Source: Acidobacteriota bacterium (GTDB lineage: Bacteria > Acidobacteriota > UBA6911 > RPQK01 > JAJDTT01). From it: DNA of 33,769 nucleotides. This document shows, one piece after another, positions 278 through 32,823 of this stretch. Numbering within the stretch: position 1 is the first letter of the stretch; each line of letters starts with the position of its first letter. The stretch covers positions 1 through 33,769 of the forward strand of contig JAJDTT010000033.1 of NCBI GenBank assembly GCA_022827025.1, given 5' to 3'. The translations under genes were made by a program, and so were the position numbers. The notes under the pieces were generated by a model. It was not told where the DNA came from. It made no database searches and saw only the letters and a program-made list of their open reading frames with translations.

Positions 278-1180
278 TCATTTGATGGCGAAGGCCTGGG
301 GGGTGATCCGGTGTTCGTGAGAAATGCGGTCGATCTTGATCTCCCAGTGCCCTGCGAAGCCGTTACGGGGGGCGAAGCCGGCACCTGAGTCCATGCCGCT
401 GGCCGCAGACTCGTTGAGGGTGATCCGGTAATGGTGCGGCAGGGTCAACCCGTCGACTTCCTTGAATTCCGAAAAGGTTTCTATCAATTGGATCCGCGTG
501 TTGTCCGCGGGCCCGTCGGCGGCGCCAAAGACGGGTCCTTGTTGCACGTGCATCAACCCCCGCCCCACGCCGGCCGGAATGGTCAGGCGATAGCTGCTGG
601 CCACGTGTCGGTAAGTCTCAGGCTCGAAGTAGAGCCGGATTCTGTATTCCACTCCCTTCTTGGGCCGATACTCCAACTCATGCAGCTTCCTGTCCTCGAA
701 CGTCTTGAGCCCCCGGTAGCGGACCTTGGCGCGCCTCTTTTCGAGATCCAGCAGAGCCCAGTCGGTGGTGAGGACACCCCCGTAGAGACCCTCCTGTGCC
801 AGTCGGGGGAAGTGGATCCAGAGGGCGGTGCCCAACTGGGAACGGATGCCGGGAGTGATGTAGGCGATGTCCAACTTGTCGCCGTTCCGGATCAGGAGTT
901 CCCTGGGATACTGGATGTGGCCGAAGCCGAAACTGGTCCGGAGTTTGTCCCCCTCCGCCAGAATCATGGCCGGACCGCCCAGCTTACCCAGGCCGCCGAC
1001 GCGGATGTCCAACGTCCCCAATCCCTGTGCCACCCGATTCTTACGCACCGGGTTCTCGCCCATGGCCTTTAGATGGAGGGCGATCAGATCGTCCGCCTCT
1101 AATTTCCTGGCCGTTCCGTCCACTCCCGCGAGCGGAAACACCAAGACGGAAAGAGCAATCCGGAATCCCCACTTACGCAT
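278..1180 (-). CDS. Secreted LolA-like protein of unknown function, paralog 1 of 4
   Basis: This is a 300-residue protein with an N-terminal signal peptide (hydrophobic stretch about residues 7-20, likely cut near GTA/RK). It belongs to a four-member family encoded at 278-1180, 2568-3521, 3604-4509 and 4532-5476. Shared blocks are ALHLK.GEN.VRKNRVAQG, the IAY(I/V).PG.RSQLGT region, TDWALL, LYFEPETYRHVAS.YR and VDGLTLPH.YRI. The pattern 'PETY' followed by 'F.(E/D)F..VDGLTLPH' resembles exported proteins annotated as LolA-like (outer-membrane lipoprotein sorting), but the match is distant and the function unknown. The protein contains no cysteine. Its linker before ETFSEF is short (24 residues), and it has a unique 12-residue insertion near the C-terminus (SGMDSGAGFAPRN). 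The start is supported by GAGGTG five bases upstream, in a leader shared with the 3521 copy. Confidence 0.8.
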   Translation of the reverse strand: MRKWGFRIALSVLVFPLAGVDGTARKLEADDLIALHLKAMGENPVRKNRVAQGLGTLDIRVGGLGKLGGPAMILAEGDKLRTSFGFGHIQYPRELLIRNGDKLDIAYITPGIRSQLGTALWIHFPRLAQEGLYGGVLTTDWALLDLEKRRAKVRYRGLKTFEDRKLHELEYRPKKGVEYRIRLYFEPETYRHVASSYRLTIPAGVGRGLMHVQQGPVFGAADGPADNTRIQLIETFSEFKEVDGLTLPHHYRITLNESAASGMDSGAGFAPRNGFAGHWEIKIDRISHEHRITPQAFAIK

Positions 1181-1453
1181 GATTCACCTCTTTGTCATTC
1201 GGCCGTAATCCGGTCTGAAGCCACTGCGGCTTTCTTTCATTCGCAGATCGATTGGGAACGTTCTCGCTCAAGGGCATCCAAGCCGTTTCGAGGTCGGGTC
1301 CTGACAATTGTTCTTGTGCCATTGTCCATAATAGATGTTCTCTCAGCCGGGAGAGTTCACGTCCGTCGGAGCCGTGGCGAGCAGCGTGATATTCGAGCCG
1401 CTGGCGGGTACGAAGTCTGAAACTCGGCTTGTGTCAATTCCCGTCGATTCGAA
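1181..1453. other. Intergenic gap with duplicated junction scar
   Basis: No gene is visible. The part next to paralog 1 (about 1181-1210) matches the leader of the paralog starting at 3521. An inverted pair GACAAT (1303-1308) and ATTGTC (1321-1326) could form a weak hairpin or binding site, but nothing nearby explains it. The end nearest the dehydrogenase, from 1410, repeats the sequence at 213-273. Confidence 0.4.
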
Positions 1454-1478
1454 TCAGGAGGTCAGCGAGACGCGGATG
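1410..1478. repeat. Duplicated junction sequence, copy 2
   Basis: ACGAAGTCTGA (1410-1420) and GTCAGCGAGACGCGG (1461-1475) match 213-223 and 256-270 in the same order. Bases 1461-1478 encode the last residues of the alcohol dehydrogenase on the minus strand, while 1410-1420 look like a leftover of the GMC gene end. The sequence just before (GAGC.G...CGGG) is also loosely similar to the GMC tail. Confidence 0.5.
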
Positions 1479-2545
1479 GCCTTGCCTTCGTCGGCCAGGG
1501 CGAAGGCCTCGTTGAGCTCCGTCAGGGGGAAAGTGTGGGAGATGATCTGCTCGAAGGGGTAGGCATGTCCGCGGCGGGCCAGAAAGTCCAGTGCCCGGGG
1601 CAGGACCCAAGGAGCATACGCGATGACCCCGCGGATGGTGTGTCCGGACCGGACACTGATGGCCGGGTCCAGGGCGGCGGTCCTCCCCGGGGCGACGTTT
1701 CCCACCCAAAGATAGCGGCCGAACTGGCGGAGCAGGTGCACGCCCTCCTCCACCGGCAGGGGCGATCCGGCGAACTCGGCCACCACGTCGGCGCCCTGGC
1801 CCCGGGTCAGGTCCAGGATCATCTCTCGACGGGTCTTCCGGTTCACGGATTCGATGTTGACCGTGAGGTCGGCGCCGAAGGAGCGGGCCAGCTCCAGCCG
1901 GCTCTCCAACCGGTCGAAGGCGATGACCTGGCCGGCGCCCATCTCCTTGGCCAGGGAGCAGGCGTACAGTCCCAGTCCGCCCGCGCCCTGGACGATGATG
2001 GTGTCGCCCAGGCGGACCCCGATCTGGTCCAGTCCGTAGAGCACCTGGCAGAGGGCGCAATTGACCGGTGAGACCTCCGAGTTGCTCAATCCGGGAGGGA
2101 CCTTGCACACCGTCTGTCCCCGGCGCAGGTAATAGTACTCTCCGTAGGCTCCCCGGAAGTGGGGAGATTCACCGGCATCCTGGAACCAATGGTCGGACCG
2201 GTTGGGGCAGGCGGGCGATCCGTCCATGCACGCCGCGCAATTTCCGCAGGGAAGGAAGTAGGTGTAGGCGATCCGGTCGCCCTCCTCGAGCCGCTGCCCC
2301 AGAACGTCGGTCTTCACCCGGCGGCCGAGGCGAAAGACTTCTCCGACCATTTCATGCCCGGGGACGAAGCCCTCCCCCTGGGTGAACTCGGGACCATGCC
2401 CGTGCCAGATGTGCAGATCCGAACCGCAGATGTTGGAGCGGCGCACCCGGACCAGAATGTCGTCCGGGCCCACGTCGGGAAGAGGGAATTCCCGGAAAAC
2501 CATCTCTTTTCGGGGGCCCAGCGAAACGGCGGCGATTCCTTGCAT
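1454..2545 (-). CDS. Zinc-dependent alcohol dehydrogenase (MDR superfamily)
   Basis: This 363-residue medium-chain dehydrogenase oxidises an alcohol or polyol with NAD(P). The catalytic zinc site is visible as C40 (NICGSD) and H64-E65 (GHE), with C163 a likely third ligand. The structural zinc lobe is C100-x2-C103-x2-C106-x6-C113, one residue shorter in the last gap than the common x7 spacing. The nucleotide-binding fold starts at GAGGLG (187-192), followed by an acidic strand end (AFDR). The substrate cannot be read from sequence; threonine- and sorbitol-dehydrogenase relatives are similar. The gene lies 22 bases downstream of the secreted paralog at 2568-3521 on the same strand, so the two are probably co-transcribed. 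Its last codons are the source of a short duplicated scar at 256-270. Confidence 0.9.
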   Translation of the reverse strand: MQGIAAVSLGPRKEMVFREFPLPDVGPDDILVRVRRSNICGSDLHIWHGHGPEFTQGEGFVPGHEMVGEVFRLGRRVKTDVLGQRLEEGDRIAYTYFLPCGNCAACMDGSPACPNRSDHWFQDAGESPHFRGAYGEYYYLRRGQTVCKVPPGLSNSEVSPVNCALCQVLYGLDQIGVRLGDTIIVQGAGGLGLYACSLAKEMGAGQVIAFDRLESRLELARSFGADLTVNIESVNRKTRREMILDLTRGQGADVVAEFAGSPLPVEEGVHLLRQFGRYLWVGNVAPGRTAALDPAISVRSGHTIRGVIAYAPWVLPRALDFLARRGHAYPFEQIISHTFPLTELNEAFALADEGKAIRVSLTS

Positions 2546-2567
2546 CGGTCCTGATCCCTGCGCCCGG

Positions 2568-3521
2568 CTACGGAATGACGAAGGCCTTGGGGGCGATCTG
2601 ACGATCGTGCGACATGCGTTCGAGCTGCATCGCCCAATGGCCCACGAATCCGGTATTGGCGTCGACGTTGAGAGTGATCTGGTAGTGATGCGGCAGGGTC
2701 AGACCATCAACCTGCTTGAATTCCGAGAACCTCTCCGTCAGTTCGACCGTGCTGCGGGTGGTGGGGTCGTCCCCGGCTCCCGGGCCTCCGATCTGCCCCA
2801 ACAGGCTGCTTTGACTGTTGGATACGGTGCGGTTTCCAGGAGTAATTCCCCCGCCGGAGCCCACCGGGGCCCCTCCTCCGCTGGAAATGTTGGTCAGCCC
2901 CCGCATGGCGCTGCGGGGAACCACGATCCGATACTTGCTGGCCACGTGGCGGTAGGTCTCCGGCTCGAAGTAGAGGCGGACCCGGTAGCGAACCTTTTTC
3001 CGGGGCTTGTAGTCGACTTCGTGGAGCTTTCGGCCCTCGAATGTCTTGAGTCCGCGGTAGCGGATCCTGGCTCGTTTGTCCTTCAGTTTGAGCAGCGCCC
3101 AGTCGGTGGAAAGGACGCCGGCGTAGAGTCCCTCCTGGACCAGCCGCGGGAAGTTTTCCCAGAGAACCGTCCCCAGTTGAGACCGGACACCGGTAGTGAT
3201 GTAGGCGATGTCCAGTTGGTCACCGTTTCGGATGAGGGTTTCCTTGGGATATTGGACGTGGTTGAAGATCAGCGCGGTCCGAAGCTTGTCCCCCTCCGAC
3301 AAAAGCATGGCCCGGCCGTTCAGATTGCCCTGGCCGCCCACCCGGATGTCCATGGTGCCCGTTCCCTGGGCGACCCGGTTCTTCCGTACGGCGTTCTCGC
3401 CGATGGATTTTAGGTGGAGGGCGATCAGCTCCTCCTTCTTCAGTTTCCTGGCCGTTGCATCCCCAACCGCGAACGGCAACATCAGGGCGAAGAGAGCGAT
3501 CCGGACTCCCCAATTTCGCAT
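2568..3521 (-). CDS. Secreted LolA-like protein of unknown function, paralog 2 of 4
   Basis: This 317-residue member of the four-gene family has signal peptide MRNWGVRIALFALMLPFAV and a likely cut near TARK. It is closest to paralog 1 at the N-terminus (MR.WG.RIAL). It has the longest variable linker, 53 Gly/Ser/Pro/Asn-rich residues between RGL and ERFSEF, against 23-24 in paralogs 1 and 3. In the shared block TE(T)FS.F, threonine is replaced by arginine (TERFSEF), and C-terminal HWE(I/F) becomes HWAM, so it is somewhat diverged. The ribosome site GAGGTG lies just before ATG, in a leader of about 30 bases also found before paralog 1. It is 22 bases upstream of the dehydrogenase gene and 82 bases downstream of paralog 3. 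Confidence 0.8.
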   Translation of the reverse strand: MRNWGVRIALFALMLPFAVGDATARKLKKEELIALHLKSIGENAVRKNRVAQGTGTMDIRVGGQGNLNGRAMLLSEGDKLRTALIFNHVQYPKETLIRNGDQLDIAYITTGVRSQLGTVLWENFPRLVQEGLYAGVLSTDWALLKLKDKRARIRYRGLKTFEGRKLHEVDYKPRKKVRYRVRLYFEPETYRHVASKYRIVVPRSAMRGLTNISSGGGAPVGSGGGITPGNRTVSNSQSSLLGQIGGPGAGDDPTTRSTVELTERFSEFKQVDGLTLPHHYQITLNVDANTGFVGHWAMQLERMSHDRQIAPKAFVIP

Positions 3522-3603
3522 GATTCACCTCATCGTTATCCGGCCGTCACCCAGTCCGAGGGTTCCAGCCGTTGCGCTCGTCCCTCGGATCCATTTGTCA
3601 TAT

Positions 3604-4509
3604 CTATTCGATCCTGAATGCTCTGGCGGCGATCCTCTGATCGTGCATCATGCGGTCGATCTGGAATTCCCAATGTCCCACGAAACCCCCGATGGCGGAT
3701 GTGTTGAGGGCAATCCTGTAGCGATGCGGCAGGGTCAGCCCATCCACTTCCTTGAAGTCCGAAAAAGTCTCCGTCAAGCGGATTCGAATCTTGTCTGCGG
3801 GCCCGGAACCGGCGCCGAACGCGCCTCCACGGATGTTTACGAGCCCCCGACCCATGCCGGCCGGCAGAGTCAGCCGGTATCTGCTCGCCACATGACGATA
3901 GGTCTCAGGTTCGAAGTAGATCCGAATCCGGTAGTCGACTCCGTTCTTCGGCCAGTACTCCAACCGGTGAAGCCTCCGGCCCTCGAACTTCTTGAGTCCG
4001 TGGTAACGAATCTTTGCCCGTCTCTTTTCCAAGTCCAGCAACGCCCAGTCGGTGGAGAGTATTCCTCCGTACAGGCCCTCTTGGGCCAGACGCGGGAAAA
4101 AGTCCCAAAGCGTACTCCCCAGCCGGGAGCGGGCGCCTGGACTGACGTATGCAATGTCCAGCTTCTCCCCGCTGCGGACGAGGGTCTCTTGAACGTATTG
4201 GGGATGACCGAATCTGATTTCGGTCCGGAGTTTGTTTCCCTCCGCCAGGAGCATGGCCTGACCGACCATCTTGGCTTGGTTTCCCACCCGGATGTCCACG
4301 GTGCCCAAACCCTGAGCGACCCGATTCTTCCGGACCAGGTTTTCGCCGATGGCCTGCAGGTGGAGCTCAACCAGCGCATCGGCCTTCAATTTCTTGGCCG
4401 ATACAAACGGAGTCGCCAAGAGGAGAGACGCGACGGCGAACGCGCCGAAGACTCTCCACGGCCCTGTGACTCGCCCCATGTCGGATGAATTGGATTTCCA
4501 GCCCATCAT
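3604..4509 (-). CDS. Secreted LolA-like protein of unknown function, paralog 3 of 4
   Basis: This 301-residue family member has a longer, polar N-region before its signal helix (GAFAVASLLLATPFVSA, residues about 22-38). Translation may start at the first or second ATG of the ATG-ATG pair (4509 or 4506) or at Met11. GGGAAGTG just upstream favours the first pair. The mature part starts with KKLKAD and keeps all family blocks: GENLVRKNRVAQG, TDWALLDLEKRRAK, FEPETYRHVASRYR and FKEVDGLTLPHRYRI. The variable linker is the shortest, 23 residues. It starts 22 bases after the stop of paralog 4, which suggests one transcript. Like paralog 1 it uses ARSRLGS/RSQLGT-type variants in the middle. Function is unknown; a periplasmic lipid- or lipoprotein-binding half-barrel is possible. 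Confidence 0.8.
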   Translation of the reverse strand: MMGWKSNSSDMGRVTGPWRVFGAFAVASLLLATPFVSAKKLKADALVELHLQAIGENLVRKNRVAQGLGTVDIRVGNQAKMVGQAMLLAEGNKLRTEIRFGHPQYVQETLVRSGEKLDIAYVSPGARSRLGSTLWDFFPRLAQEGLYGGILSTDWALLDLEKRRAKIRYHGLKKFEGRRLHRLEYWPKNGVDYRIRIYFEPETYRHVASRYRLTLPAGMGRGLVNIRGGAFGAGSGPADKIRIRLTETFSDFKEVDGLTLPHRYRIALNTSAIGGFVGHWEFQIDRMMHDQRIAARAFRIE

Positions 4510-4531
4510 TTCACTTCCCGGATTCGCGCGC

Positions 4532-5476
4532 CTACTTGATGGCGAAGGCCCTGGCGGCGATCTTGCGATTGTGCGACATGCGGTCGATCTTGATCTCCCA
4601 GTGTCCGACGAAACCGGATTGGGCGTCGACGTTGAGGGTGATCCGGTAAAGGTGCGGCAAGGTCAGCCCATCGACCTGCTTGAAGTCCGAGAAGGTCTCC
4701 ACCAGGTTGATCCGATTCTGGTTCGCCGGCCCGTCGGAGGGACCCGGACGAGTATTGTACTGCGGTCCCGAGAAGCCTCCGCCTCCCGGGGCCGTGGCGC
4801 CTCCCGCGCCTGCGCCTCCACCGGTGCGGCCGTCTCCGGCAATGTCCACCAATCCTCGCCCCATTCCGCCCGGCACCGAGAGCCGGTAGCTGCTGGCCAC
4901 GTGGCGGTAGGTTTCAGGTTCGAAGTAGAGGCGGATCCTGTAGTCGACCCCCTTCTTGGGCTTGTACTCCAGTTCGTGCAGCTCTTTCTCTTCGAACTTC
5001 TTGAGTCCCCGGTAGCGGACCTTGGCCCGCTTCTTCCTCAGGTCCAGCAGCGCCCAGTCGGTGGAAAGAACTCCTCCGTAGAGTCCCTCCTGTGCCAGCC
5101 GGGGAAAGTTGTCCCAGAGGGCCGTCCCCAGTTGGGACCGGACGCCCGGGCTGATGTAGGCAACGTCCACCTTGTCCCCATTGCGGATCAGGGTTTCCTG
5201 GGGGTATTGGGTGTGCCCGAAATTGAAGGAGGTCCGAATCTTGTCCGCCTCCGCCAACAGCATGGCGGGACCGCCCAGCTTGCCCTGGCCTCCGACCCGG
5301 ATGTCCATGGTGCCCAGTCCCTGGGCCACCCGGTTCTTCCAGACCAGGTTCTCGCCGATGGACTTCAGATGGAGGGCGACCAGTTGGTCCGCCTTCATCT
5401 TCCTGGCCGGCACATCCACCGTCGTGAGGAGAAACGCCGCGACGGCGGAAACGATCAGGAACGTCGATTTCTTCAT
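4532..5476 (-). CDS. Secreted LolA-like protein of unknown function, paralog 4 of 4
   Basis: This 314-residue member has signal peptide MKKSTFLIVSAVAAFLLTTV and a likely cut near VPARK. It keeps the family blocks (GENLVWKNRVAQG, with W in place of R; ALWDNFPRLAQEGLYGG; FEPETYRHVASSYRL; FKQVDGLTLPHLYRI). The linker is 50 residues and very rich in glycine, alanine and proline (GGGAGAGGATAPGGGG). It appears to be the first family gene of the array, 90 bases after the amidase gene and 22 bases before paralog 3. The ribosome site GGGGTG lies five bases from ATG and the short leader again reads GAATC before the start. The variation looks confined to a surface linker, while the folded core is held constant. 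Confidence 0.8.
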   Translation of the reverse strand: MKKSTFLIVSAVAAFLLTTVDVPARKMKADQLVALHLKSIGENLVWKNRVAQGLGTMDIRVGGQGKLGGPAMLLAEADKIRTSFNFGHTQYPQETLIRNGDKVDVAYISPGVRSQLGTALWDNFPRLAQEGLYGGVLSTDWALLDLRKKRAKVRYRGLKKFEEKELHELEYKPKKGVDYRIRLYFEPETYRHVASSYRLSVPGGMGRGLVDIAGDGRTGGGAGAGGATAPGGGGFSGPQYNTRPGPSDGPANQNRINLVETFSDFKQVDGLTLPHLYRITLNVDAQSGFVGHWEIKIDRMSHNRKIAARAFAIK

Positions 5477-5566
5477 GATTCACCCCTTGTTGAAGGACCC
5501 CCGTTCTCGATGCAGCAAGGACTGTTGCCCAAGAACGAACGGGCAAAATAATGCATGAACTGAATG

Positions 5567-6403: not shown

Positions 6404-6480
6404 GCCGCCCCCGTTCCGAGAACTGGTATGATTCTACAGGTTTGGCGCCAGGCTGCGAGTGTGCTGTCCGTCAATTGGAA

Positions 6481-6708
6481 GTAGGGACGACCCTTGTGGC
6501 CGCCCGCCCGGCACCAGCGTGTGGAGCGGCGTCTTTCAGGCGCCGACTGGGAAGGGCGTCTTTCCAGGCGCCCGTTCTCCAGAGGAGTGGCTTGGTCCTG
6601 CGAAAGAACACGGGGCGCCTGAAACACGCCCCTCCCATGGGCGACAAGGATGTCGCCCCTCCTGGCGTGGTTCGGACCGAAGAGGGCGCCCGCAAGGGGT
6701 GCCCCTGC
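6481..6708. repeat. Palindromic dispersed repeat, locus A (composite)
   Basis: The outer arms are 6481-6505 (starting GTAGGGACGACC) and 6684-6708 (ending GGTGCCCCTGC). They match the arms at 29918-30065 with two or three changes each. Between them lie further hairpins: GGGCGACA/TGTCGCCC with loop AGGA (about 6638-6657), and GGCGTCTTT(C)CAGGCGCC units answered by GGGGCGCCTGAAACACGCCCC. This copy therefore looks like a repeat nested in a repeat. It resembles REP/REPIN-type or MITE-like elements; no transposase gene is near. Confidence 0.75.
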
Positions 6709-6760
6709 GGGGATTCGGAATCGAGGCTCGACCCGTTACGAATACATGGTTTTGCGGGAC
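6709..6760 (+). promoter_or_regulatory. Conserved flank of repeat A, upstream of the PIG-L gene
   Basis: After the right arm comes a stretch containing GGCTCGACCCGTT, GAATACATG and TTTGCGGGA that is nearly the same as 30079-30113. In both places it points at, and lies just upstream of, a plus-strand gene for an exported protein. No clear sigma-70 boxes are visible, so a promoter or leader role is only a possibility. Confidence 0.35.
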
Positions 6761-6782
6761 GCCTCACTAGAGAGTTCGGTCT

Positions 6783-9410: not shown

Positions 9411-9458
9411 GTGCGGGAACGACCGGCGCCGGAGGGTGACCACGAGGGTCGCCCCTAC
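9407..9458. repeat. Palindromic dispersed repeat, locus B (short copy)
   Basis: This 52-base copy begins GTAGGTGCGGG and ends in the arm 9434-9458 (GGGTGACC, loop, GGTCGCCCCTAC). Read in reverse it matches the left arm at 29918-29942, including the preceding GG.CCGTAGGGG. The T-A-G of its left end (9408-9410) is the stop codon of the PIG-L gene. The ychF gene starts 37 bases later. Confidence 0.7.
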
Positions 9459-25841: not shown

Positions 25842-26036
25842 GTAGGGGCGACCCTTGTGTGGTCGCCCTCCCCGGACCTTGTGCCCTCCCTGACCGTTGT
25901 GGTTTCCCTCCCCGGACCGGGCAGTGAGGGGCGACGGCGGGCACCCAAAGGGGGTGCCCCTACGTGCGGAACATGGTGTCGACCGTGGAGCCGATGAATC
26001 CCGGCGCGAAGGGGTGCCCCTGCGTGCCGAGCATGG
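25842..26036. repeat. Palindromic dispersed repeat, locus C with partial tandem copy
   Basis: The left arm is 25842-25868 (GTAGGGGCGACCC, loop widened by an extra TG, GGTCGCCC). The right arm is 25939-25963 (GGGCACCC, loop AAAGG, GGGTGCCCCTAC). A partial second right end follows at 26008-26036 (AAGGGGTGCCCCTGCGTGC, then GAGCATGG), echoing 25948-25976 (CCCCTACGTGCGGAACATGG). The outer ends again pair as GTAGGGGC and GCCCCTAC. Confidence 0.75.
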
Positions 26037-29847: not shown

Positions 29848-29917
29848 GGCGGGAGAGTTTAACAGGGTTGACGGTCAGTGATGAAAGTCGCACGAAGAGC
29901 GATTGCCCTCCCGGTCC

Positions 29918-30065
29918 GTAGGGGCGACCCTTGTGGTCGCCCGGTCGGCGTCACCTGCCGAGATCATCCGGAGGGCCCGTCAGGACCTCCGCACCACGTC
30001 CCCGTGGTCGGCTGGGTCCTGGTCTGGTCCGGACCGAAGAGGGCACCCACAAGGGGTGCCCCTAC
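29918..30065. repeat. Palindromic dispersed repeat, locus D (cleanest copy)
   Basis: This 148-base element has two 25-base arms. The left arm (29918-29942) folds as GGGCGACC, loop CTTGT, GGTCGCCC. The right arm (30041-30065) folds as GGGCACCC, loop ACAAG, GGGTGCCC. The arms also pair with each other through GTAGGGGC and GCCCCTAC ends and complementary loops, with only four differing positions. Those four are two pairs of compensating changes that keep each arm's own stem intact. The interior (29943-30040) is unique in this window except near its right end. Confidence 0.8.
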
Positions 30066-30115
30066 GGTTCGAATCCCAGGCTCGACCCGTTCGGAATACA
30101 TGAATTTGCGGGAAA
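30066..30115 (+). promoter_or_regulatory. Conserved flank of repeat D, upstream of the 630-residue exported protein
   Basis: The stretch contains GGCTCGACCCGTT, GGAATACATG and TTTGCGGGA, matching 6725-6758 upstream of the PIG-L gene in the same orientation. It runs directly into the ribosome site AAAGGAG (30113-30119). It could carry a shared promoter or leader, or could simply be the element's own right flank. Confidence 0.35.
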
Positions 30116-30125
30116 GGAGTGGGGA

Positions 30126-32193: not shown

Positions 32194-32823
32194 TCAGGAA
32201 CCCAACTTTTCGATCATCCTCACCAGTGTGCTGACCTGGTTGTTCAGCGCACCGGAGAATTCTTCCAACTGCCGGGCGTAAGCGCGCAGGGCCTGGAGTT
32301 CAGGGGCCAGAGCAGGCGTCACCGCCTCGGGAGCCGCCGGTTCAGGTTCCGGTTCCGGCTCGGGCTCCGGTTCAGGCTCCGGTTCCGGTGCGGGTTCCGG
32401 CTCGGGTGCGGGTTCCGGCTCGGGTTCAGGTTCAGGTTCGGGCTCCGGCTCCGGTGCGGGCTCGGGAGCTGCCGGAGCTTCCGGGGCGGCTTCCGCTTCG
32501 GCCTCGGGCTCAGGGGCGGGCTCTGCCGCGGGCTCGGGAGCCGGTTCGGGAGCTGCCGGAGCCTCGGCGGCGGCCGGCGGATCCTCGACCTGGAACACGA
32601 AAAAGAGTTCGCGGCCCCGTTTTTCCATCTCGACTCCGTCGACGGTATTCAGCAGCCGTTTGACCAGATTCTTGTCGTTCGGAGTCGACTTGAGACCCAG
32701 TTTGGATCCGTTCTTGGCGATGAGTTGACTCACACTGGCCGCCCCCGCTTTCCGAACGGCCTGATCCAAGCCGTCCTTTATCTTTTCCAACTCTTCTCGC
32801 TTTCGACGTTTCCTCTTGGCCAT
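32194..32823 (-). CDS. Pro-Glu repeat protein with basic N-terminus, possible nucleoid-associated protein
   Basis: This 209-residue protein has three parts. Residues 1-80 are strongly basic at the start ([10 protein letters not shown]), then probably helical with a short winged-helix-like block ([19 protein letters not shown], then [23 protein letters not shown]). Residues about 82-166 are almost only P, E and A, including long PEPEPE runs. Residues about 174-207 ([28 protein letters not shown]) form an amphipathic helix likely to oligomerise. There is no signal or membrane helix, so it should be cytoplasmic. A DNA-binding head, stiff spacer and pairing tail are suggested by layout only. AAAGGA lies 7 bases before ATG 32823. 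Confidence 0.7.
32329..32580. repeat. Imperfect hexanucleotide tract coding the Pro-Glu spacer
   Basis: The tract is built of six-base units such as TTCCGG, CTCGGG, TTCAGG and CTCCGG, each coding Pro-Glu on the minus strand, broken by GCG units that give Ala. Such tracts change length by slippage while keeping frame, so the spacer length may vary between strains. Confidence 0.7.

Follow-up and report, generated by a model that had tools for sequence, protein, structure and literature searches.

Locus D lies at positions 29918-30065 of a 33,769-nucleotide stretch of DNA from an Acidobacteriota bacterium (referred to as the window) and raises the question of what kind of element it is, as its two arms can each fold into a hairpin and can also pair with each other. 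The arms are inverted and 25 nt long, and each consists of GTAG, an 8-bp stem and a 5-nt loop. The left arm has the sequence GTAGGGGCGACCCTTGTGGTCGCCC, while the right arm is the reverse complement of GTAGGGGCACCCCTTGTGGGTGCCC. Locus D is composed of the following parts:

29918-29942, + strand: left arm (L type), GTAG followed by stem GGGCGACC/GGTCGCCC with loop CTTGT
29943-30040: spacer of 98 nt, among the common spacer classes (~97 nt)
30041-30065, - strand: right arm (R type), read on the - strand as GTAG followed by stem GGGCACCC/GGGTGCCC with loop CTTGT
30066-30112: conserved tail past the right arm, GGTTCGAATCCCAGGCTCGACCC...TTTGCGGGA, from an alignment of 22 tail-bearing copies

Folded as DNA, the single arms gave -10.5 and -10.1 kcal/mol, values equalled by none of 200 shuffles, which bears out the proposal of the first-pass annotation that each arm forms its own hairpin with a perfect 8-base stem. 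The annotation had further described the arms as inverted repeats of each other, and indeed they agree at 21 of 25 positions and the full 148 nt fold arm to arm (-49.2 kcal/mol, z -5.4). The four positions at which they differ represent two compensated base pairs (G-C to A-T and A-T to C-G) and preserve the stems, as had been claimed. A paralogue of locus D was found at C21:3743-3952 (88% identity across window positions 29906-30116). The tail is part of a larger repeated and inserted unit, a MITE whose outermost end is degenerate here.

Three further loci of the window had been described as having the same design:

6457-6769, + strand: locus A, a MITE copy of 313 bp with a diverged REP dimer, without counterpart in three congeners
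6457-6473 (+ strand) and 6753-6769 (- strand): terminal repeats of locus A
6481-6505, + strand: left arm of locus A, stem with two mismatches
6684-6708, - strand: right arm of locus A, stem with one mismatch
9434-9458, - strand: locus B, a lone L-type arm without partner, one stem mismatch, site empty in congeners
25842-25868, + strand: left arm of locus C, intact stem, loop 2 nt longer
25939-25963, - strand: right arm of locus C, intact stem, altered loop

The design thus recurs at locus C, where both stems are present and the loops altered, and with mismatches at locus A, but not at locus B, which is a single arm. The spacer of locus A additionally holds other GC-rich hairpin repeats (GGAGCGGCGTC..., GGGGCGCCTGAAACACGCCCC; window positions 6523-6660).

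A polar repeat family with covarying stems

Copies of the arms were counted in the 5.3-Mb source genome, a draft in 318 contigs. The exact 12-mer GTAGGGGCGACC was present 133 times, compared to 3 times for the reversed control. R-type arms were detected at 375 sites genome-wide (up to 2 mismatches; 0 in the control), and the L arm with its exact stem 105 times, compared to 16, 0 and 0 times in three other genomes of the genus. Left arms carry the GGGCGACC stem and right arms either GGGCACCC or GGGCGCCC, and pairs form almost exclusively between an L and an R arm, with the GTAG ends pointing outward. In the stretches around arm sites, which partly overlap, 67 convergent L-R pairs with GTAG outward were counted versus one L-L and zero R-R pairs (in the L+L- sense), and the few other neighbour types correspond to adjacent separate elements. 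An R partner was present for about 23 of the 27 L arms located away from contig edges. Both observations demonstrate that the family unit is a polar heterodimer. All 47 distinct copies had a C directly outside the GTAG of the L arm, although their flanks are related and hence not independent.

Pairing within the arms was analyzed with arms that had been chosen by their 5' half (GTAGGGGC) alone, so that the 3' half could be tested. All eight stem positions were paired at 112 of the 135 own-genome sites in the stretches around arm sites. When the 34 distinct 25-mers were taken unselected, all four inner pairs were present in 18, whereas shuffling yielded a mean of 8 and a maximum of 14. From these, 20 distinct arms in the full 25-nt register were drawn, excluding arms with shifted loops or broken stems. 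They contained 14 both-side changes at two variable pairs and reached a covariation score of 0.228, compared to 0.111 when shuffled; none of 500 shuffles attained 0.228, and each slid register scored lower. Since the set of 20 left out the shifted-loop and broken arms, the unselected figure is the fairer one. Across phyla, the four inner positions were all paired in 77 of 169 distinct arms, compared to 21 under shuffling. The covariation backs the internal stem of each arm. Pairing of arm with arm is a consequence of the inverted dimerisation, and it is weakened by the consistent difference between left and right stems, which also weakens the case for selection on a long cruciform. The suggestion that the double pairing reflects selection on structure is therefore upheld for the internal stems but not for the cruciform.

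Taken as a family, the arms show GTAG immediately 5' of a short perfect stem-loop, high copy number and compensatory stem changes, as is characteristic of GTAG REPs, and the inverted REP pair with outward GTAG as a repeated unit is characteristic of a REPIN or head-to-head (HH) dimer. The exact stem was also found in at least 117 stretches, mostly from MAGs. Among the matches listed were Chloroflexi, Clostridia, Bacteroidetes, Proteobacteria, Planctomycetota, Acidobacteriota, Gemmatimonadota, Armatimonadetes, Patescibacteria and others. A GC content of 64% in the window and the fragmented draft assembly might suggest palindromes arisen by chance or an assembly artefact. The excess of copies over the control, the orientation rule, the covariation, the empty sites described below and the recurrence of the same arm across many unrelated genomes make the probability of this negligible.

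Empty sites in sister species

The gene junctions at loci D and A are conserved in three congeners at about 85-93% DNA identity, and the element is missing in all three, demonstrating that the elements insert. The empty-site gap at locus D corresponds to window positions 29871-30111, and the gap at locus A coincides with the MITE ends. The locus B arm is likewise missing from the congeners. The locus C element is present in one sister species (G001) and missing in another (G003), indicating that the copies differ in age. Both outer ends of locus D have diverged from those of the intact MITE, and the empty-site boundaries of this locus are fuzzy (~90% flank identity), so that a target duplication and the exact cleavage point cannot be read.

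These sites also bear on the idea that the hairpins are retained as RNA or DNA regulatory structures, such as bidirectional terminators or mRNA stabilisers, and that mobility is only how they arose historically. Conserved, covarying stems and an intergenic location within the window would fit such a role. However, a T-tract terminator and a promoter pattern are both absent at locus D, an Rfam match is absent across the window, the genes on either side of loci A and D are divergently oriented, and the absence of both loci from the three sister species implies that they are not required there. A regulatory role is thus regarded as improbable.

The cognate RAYT and its relation to known systems

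A RAYT gene was searched for with a query from Rheinheimera sp. YQF-1, a RAYT present there in three tandem copies with flanking GTAGGGGCGACC arms. Its relative in the source genome is located on another contig than the window, at C20:354-1040, and harbors the HUH motif MPNHIH as well as WQ and YI..NP. An R-L dimer lies upstream and an R arm at the 3' end of the gene, although the context is incomplete as contig C20 starts inside an arm. The same REPs thus flank the RAYT gene in the same genome, as in a REPtron. Within the ORF, a head-to-head dimer of GTAG REPs is inserted in frame at C20 635-743, between the HUH and Tyr halves, and given this internal dimer the RAYT may be inactive. A profile built from nine such RAYTs had its best match in PDB 4ER8, 'TnpArep'.

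The internal dimer probably splits the domain, which would explain why PF01797 missed this gene. The RAYTs that PF01797 did detect, at C110 and C22, were rejected as cognate enzyme since different repeats flank both. Around the C22 gene, hairpin repeats (GGAGCGGCGTC..., GGGGCGCCTGAAACACGCCCC) are found in long inverted repeats (L032 ~960-1370 and 2100-2700), representing a second RAYT/TIR family, and the C110 gene is flanked by a third repeat family (GGGGGACTTTTAGTCCCCCC and GGGGGTAGGAAAACCCCC) as direct repeats (L031 ~1040-1100 and 1795-1850).

Within the genus, the C20 type of RAYT was found only in the arm-rich genome; in the sister genome with 16 arms (G001) a strong RAYT match was not found. 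Strong matches to the RAYT subfamily (E <= 1e-10) were obtained in 33 of 46 arm-bearing genomes versus 10 of 40 relatives of the window genome (p 3e-5), two groups made up of different taxa. In arm-bearing genomes of many phyla, GTAG hairpins were often located at most 400 bp away from 24 of 34 core ORFs of the same subfamily and inside the frame of 22 of the 34 (at about nt 100, at nt 250-270 and near the C-terminus), counts which include a few duplicated loci and marginal hairpins. In-frame REPs thus recur at three sites in the RAYTs of many phyla, and the N-terminal and C-terminal sites add to the HUH-Tyr site already published.

TnpAREP subclass 2.4, equivalent to RAYT group 4, was described as having a G-C stem foot, occurring across a wide range of phyla and carrying REPs inserted in frame (Quentin et al., 2018, PMC6006769). 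The C20 system has in common with it the NH.H, WQ and YI..NP motifs, three consecutive G-C pairs at the stem foot (GGG/CCC), gene-flanking REPs, in-frame REPs between the HUH and Tyr motifs and a scatter over many phyla. It goes beyond the subclass as published in that arms also lie in frame close to both termini (~codon 33 at the N-terminal end). That RAYT genes hold REPs in frame at all was rejected as a novelty, having already been reported (Quentin et al., 2018, PMC6006769). Locus D is therefore very probably a head-to-head GTAG REP heterodimer of the REPIN type, belonging to the REP family of the C20 RAYT/TnpAREP of Quentin subclass 2.4 (Bertels group 4), an assignment made by motifs and features rather than by class HMM or tree, the match to NCBIfam REP_Tyr_transpos being in two pieces (E 8e-11) and below the cut-off (42 of 80 bits). 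The first-pass annotation had proposed REPIN-type or MITE-like elements with a distant transposase, looking to copy number, orientation, covariation and a RAYT with matching ends; each of these is now in place, the last with arms around the C20 gene as well as inside it.

For other TnpAREP members, strand-specific recognition of REP hairpins was demonstrated (PMC8266576). For the C20 RAYT, we infer recognition and a moving step as follows. Single-stranded DNA, as on the lagging-strand template, would expose the GTAG foot and the arm hairpin, both of which the HUH/Tyr enzyme would recognise and cleave. The segment from left arm to right arm could then be excised or copied and inserted elsewhere, with the two arms marking its ends like the hairpins in IS200/IS605. 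The IS200/IS605 system shares with the family a related HUH/Tyr enzyme, single-strand recognition of hairpin ends and element polarity, whereas the locus D family is without an insertion-sequence body and the GTAG foot is REP-specific.

GTAG REPs, head-to-head heterodimers and REP dimers within longer palindromes were described earlier (Di Nocera et al., 2013, PMC3733652). Judged by that text description rather than by the 24 family consensuses, the locus D family shares with them GTAG at one end, a stem in the 6-13 bp range, a short loop, GTAG-outward dimers, heterodimers with different stems, conserved spacers and the association with a RAYT. With the REPINs (Bertels and Rainey, 2011, PMC3116915), it has in common the inverted REP pair as a unit and a RAYT in the same genome, but differs in its systematically different L and R arms, in spacers of 30 to more than 200 nt and in the many dimers that lie in longer repeats. 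The family is a mobile member of the known GTAG REP/REPIN class with its own RAYT, and provides a clean and testable RAYT/REP pair from the little-studied group 4 or subclass 2.4. Empty sites in sister species and distinguishable left and right arms are useful features of this pair, and the L-arm counts within one genus, together with a RAYT restricted to the richest genome, offer a natural contrast.

REP dimers nested in a MITE

Copies related to loci A and D have the tail past the R arm in common, and CTAGTGTGCYGTCCC inverted repeats form their ends; 49 sites of these repeats were found in the genome versus 2 in the control. The units between these ends measure about 202 bp, many of them exactly 202 bp. 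With terminal inverted repeats, zero coding capacity and multiple copies of constant length, the A/D lineage has the properties of a MITE. Its ends are CTAG-like, and a clear target duplication was not seen. Many REP dimers are nested in this MITE, including those of locus A, with intact ends, and locus D, with degenerate ends; this subset of dimers would have spread as part of the MITE.

In the extreme case, all elements would be MITEs moved by a DDE-type transposase acting on the CTAGTGTGCYGTCCC ends, and the GTAG hairpins passive cargo that was captured once. The enrichment of the terminal-repeat sites, the constant length from end to end and the match of the locus A empty-site gap to the MITE ends are in line with this. 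On the other hand, the same dimer occurs without MITE ends in other flanks, which carry different repeats (the GAACGACTC and CCCGTTC groups), and also within the RAYT gene; R arms are far more numerous than MITE ends; and a parent transposon or transposase with CTAGTGTGCYGTCCC ends was sought in vain. Pure MITEs are therefore considered unlikely, and the REPIN-type heterodimer remains the preferred explanation.

Unlike in the palindromes described for Anabaena variabilis GTAG-15 and H. neapolitanus CGTC-1 (PMC3733652), which also contain REP dimers, the enclosing repeat of the locus D family is a MITE with defined terminal repeats. A literature text search with the arm or MITE-end sequence retrieved no relevant paper, and REP dimers nested in a MITE with CTAGTGTGCYGTCCC ends are apparently unreported, no earlier description having been found. 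For the MITE we infer a separate transposase. Tentatively, two unrelated systems might thus act on one mobile unit, namely a single-strand HUH RAYT on the asymmetric REP hairpins (L and R) and, on the MITE around them, a transposase that depends on terminal repeats; the REPs would then partly hitch-hike and the RAYT gene would be a landing site for its own REPs. The nesting offers a way to ask if REPs spread alone or by hitch-hiking.

Two further repeats were observed in the window. A gene-sized segment is present in four diverged copies at 278-5551, three of which are in tandem with ~1 kb spacing, and positions 32297-32584 contain an imperfect repeat of a 6-bp unit (GGTTCC/GGCTCG), possibly encoding a low-complexity protein linker.
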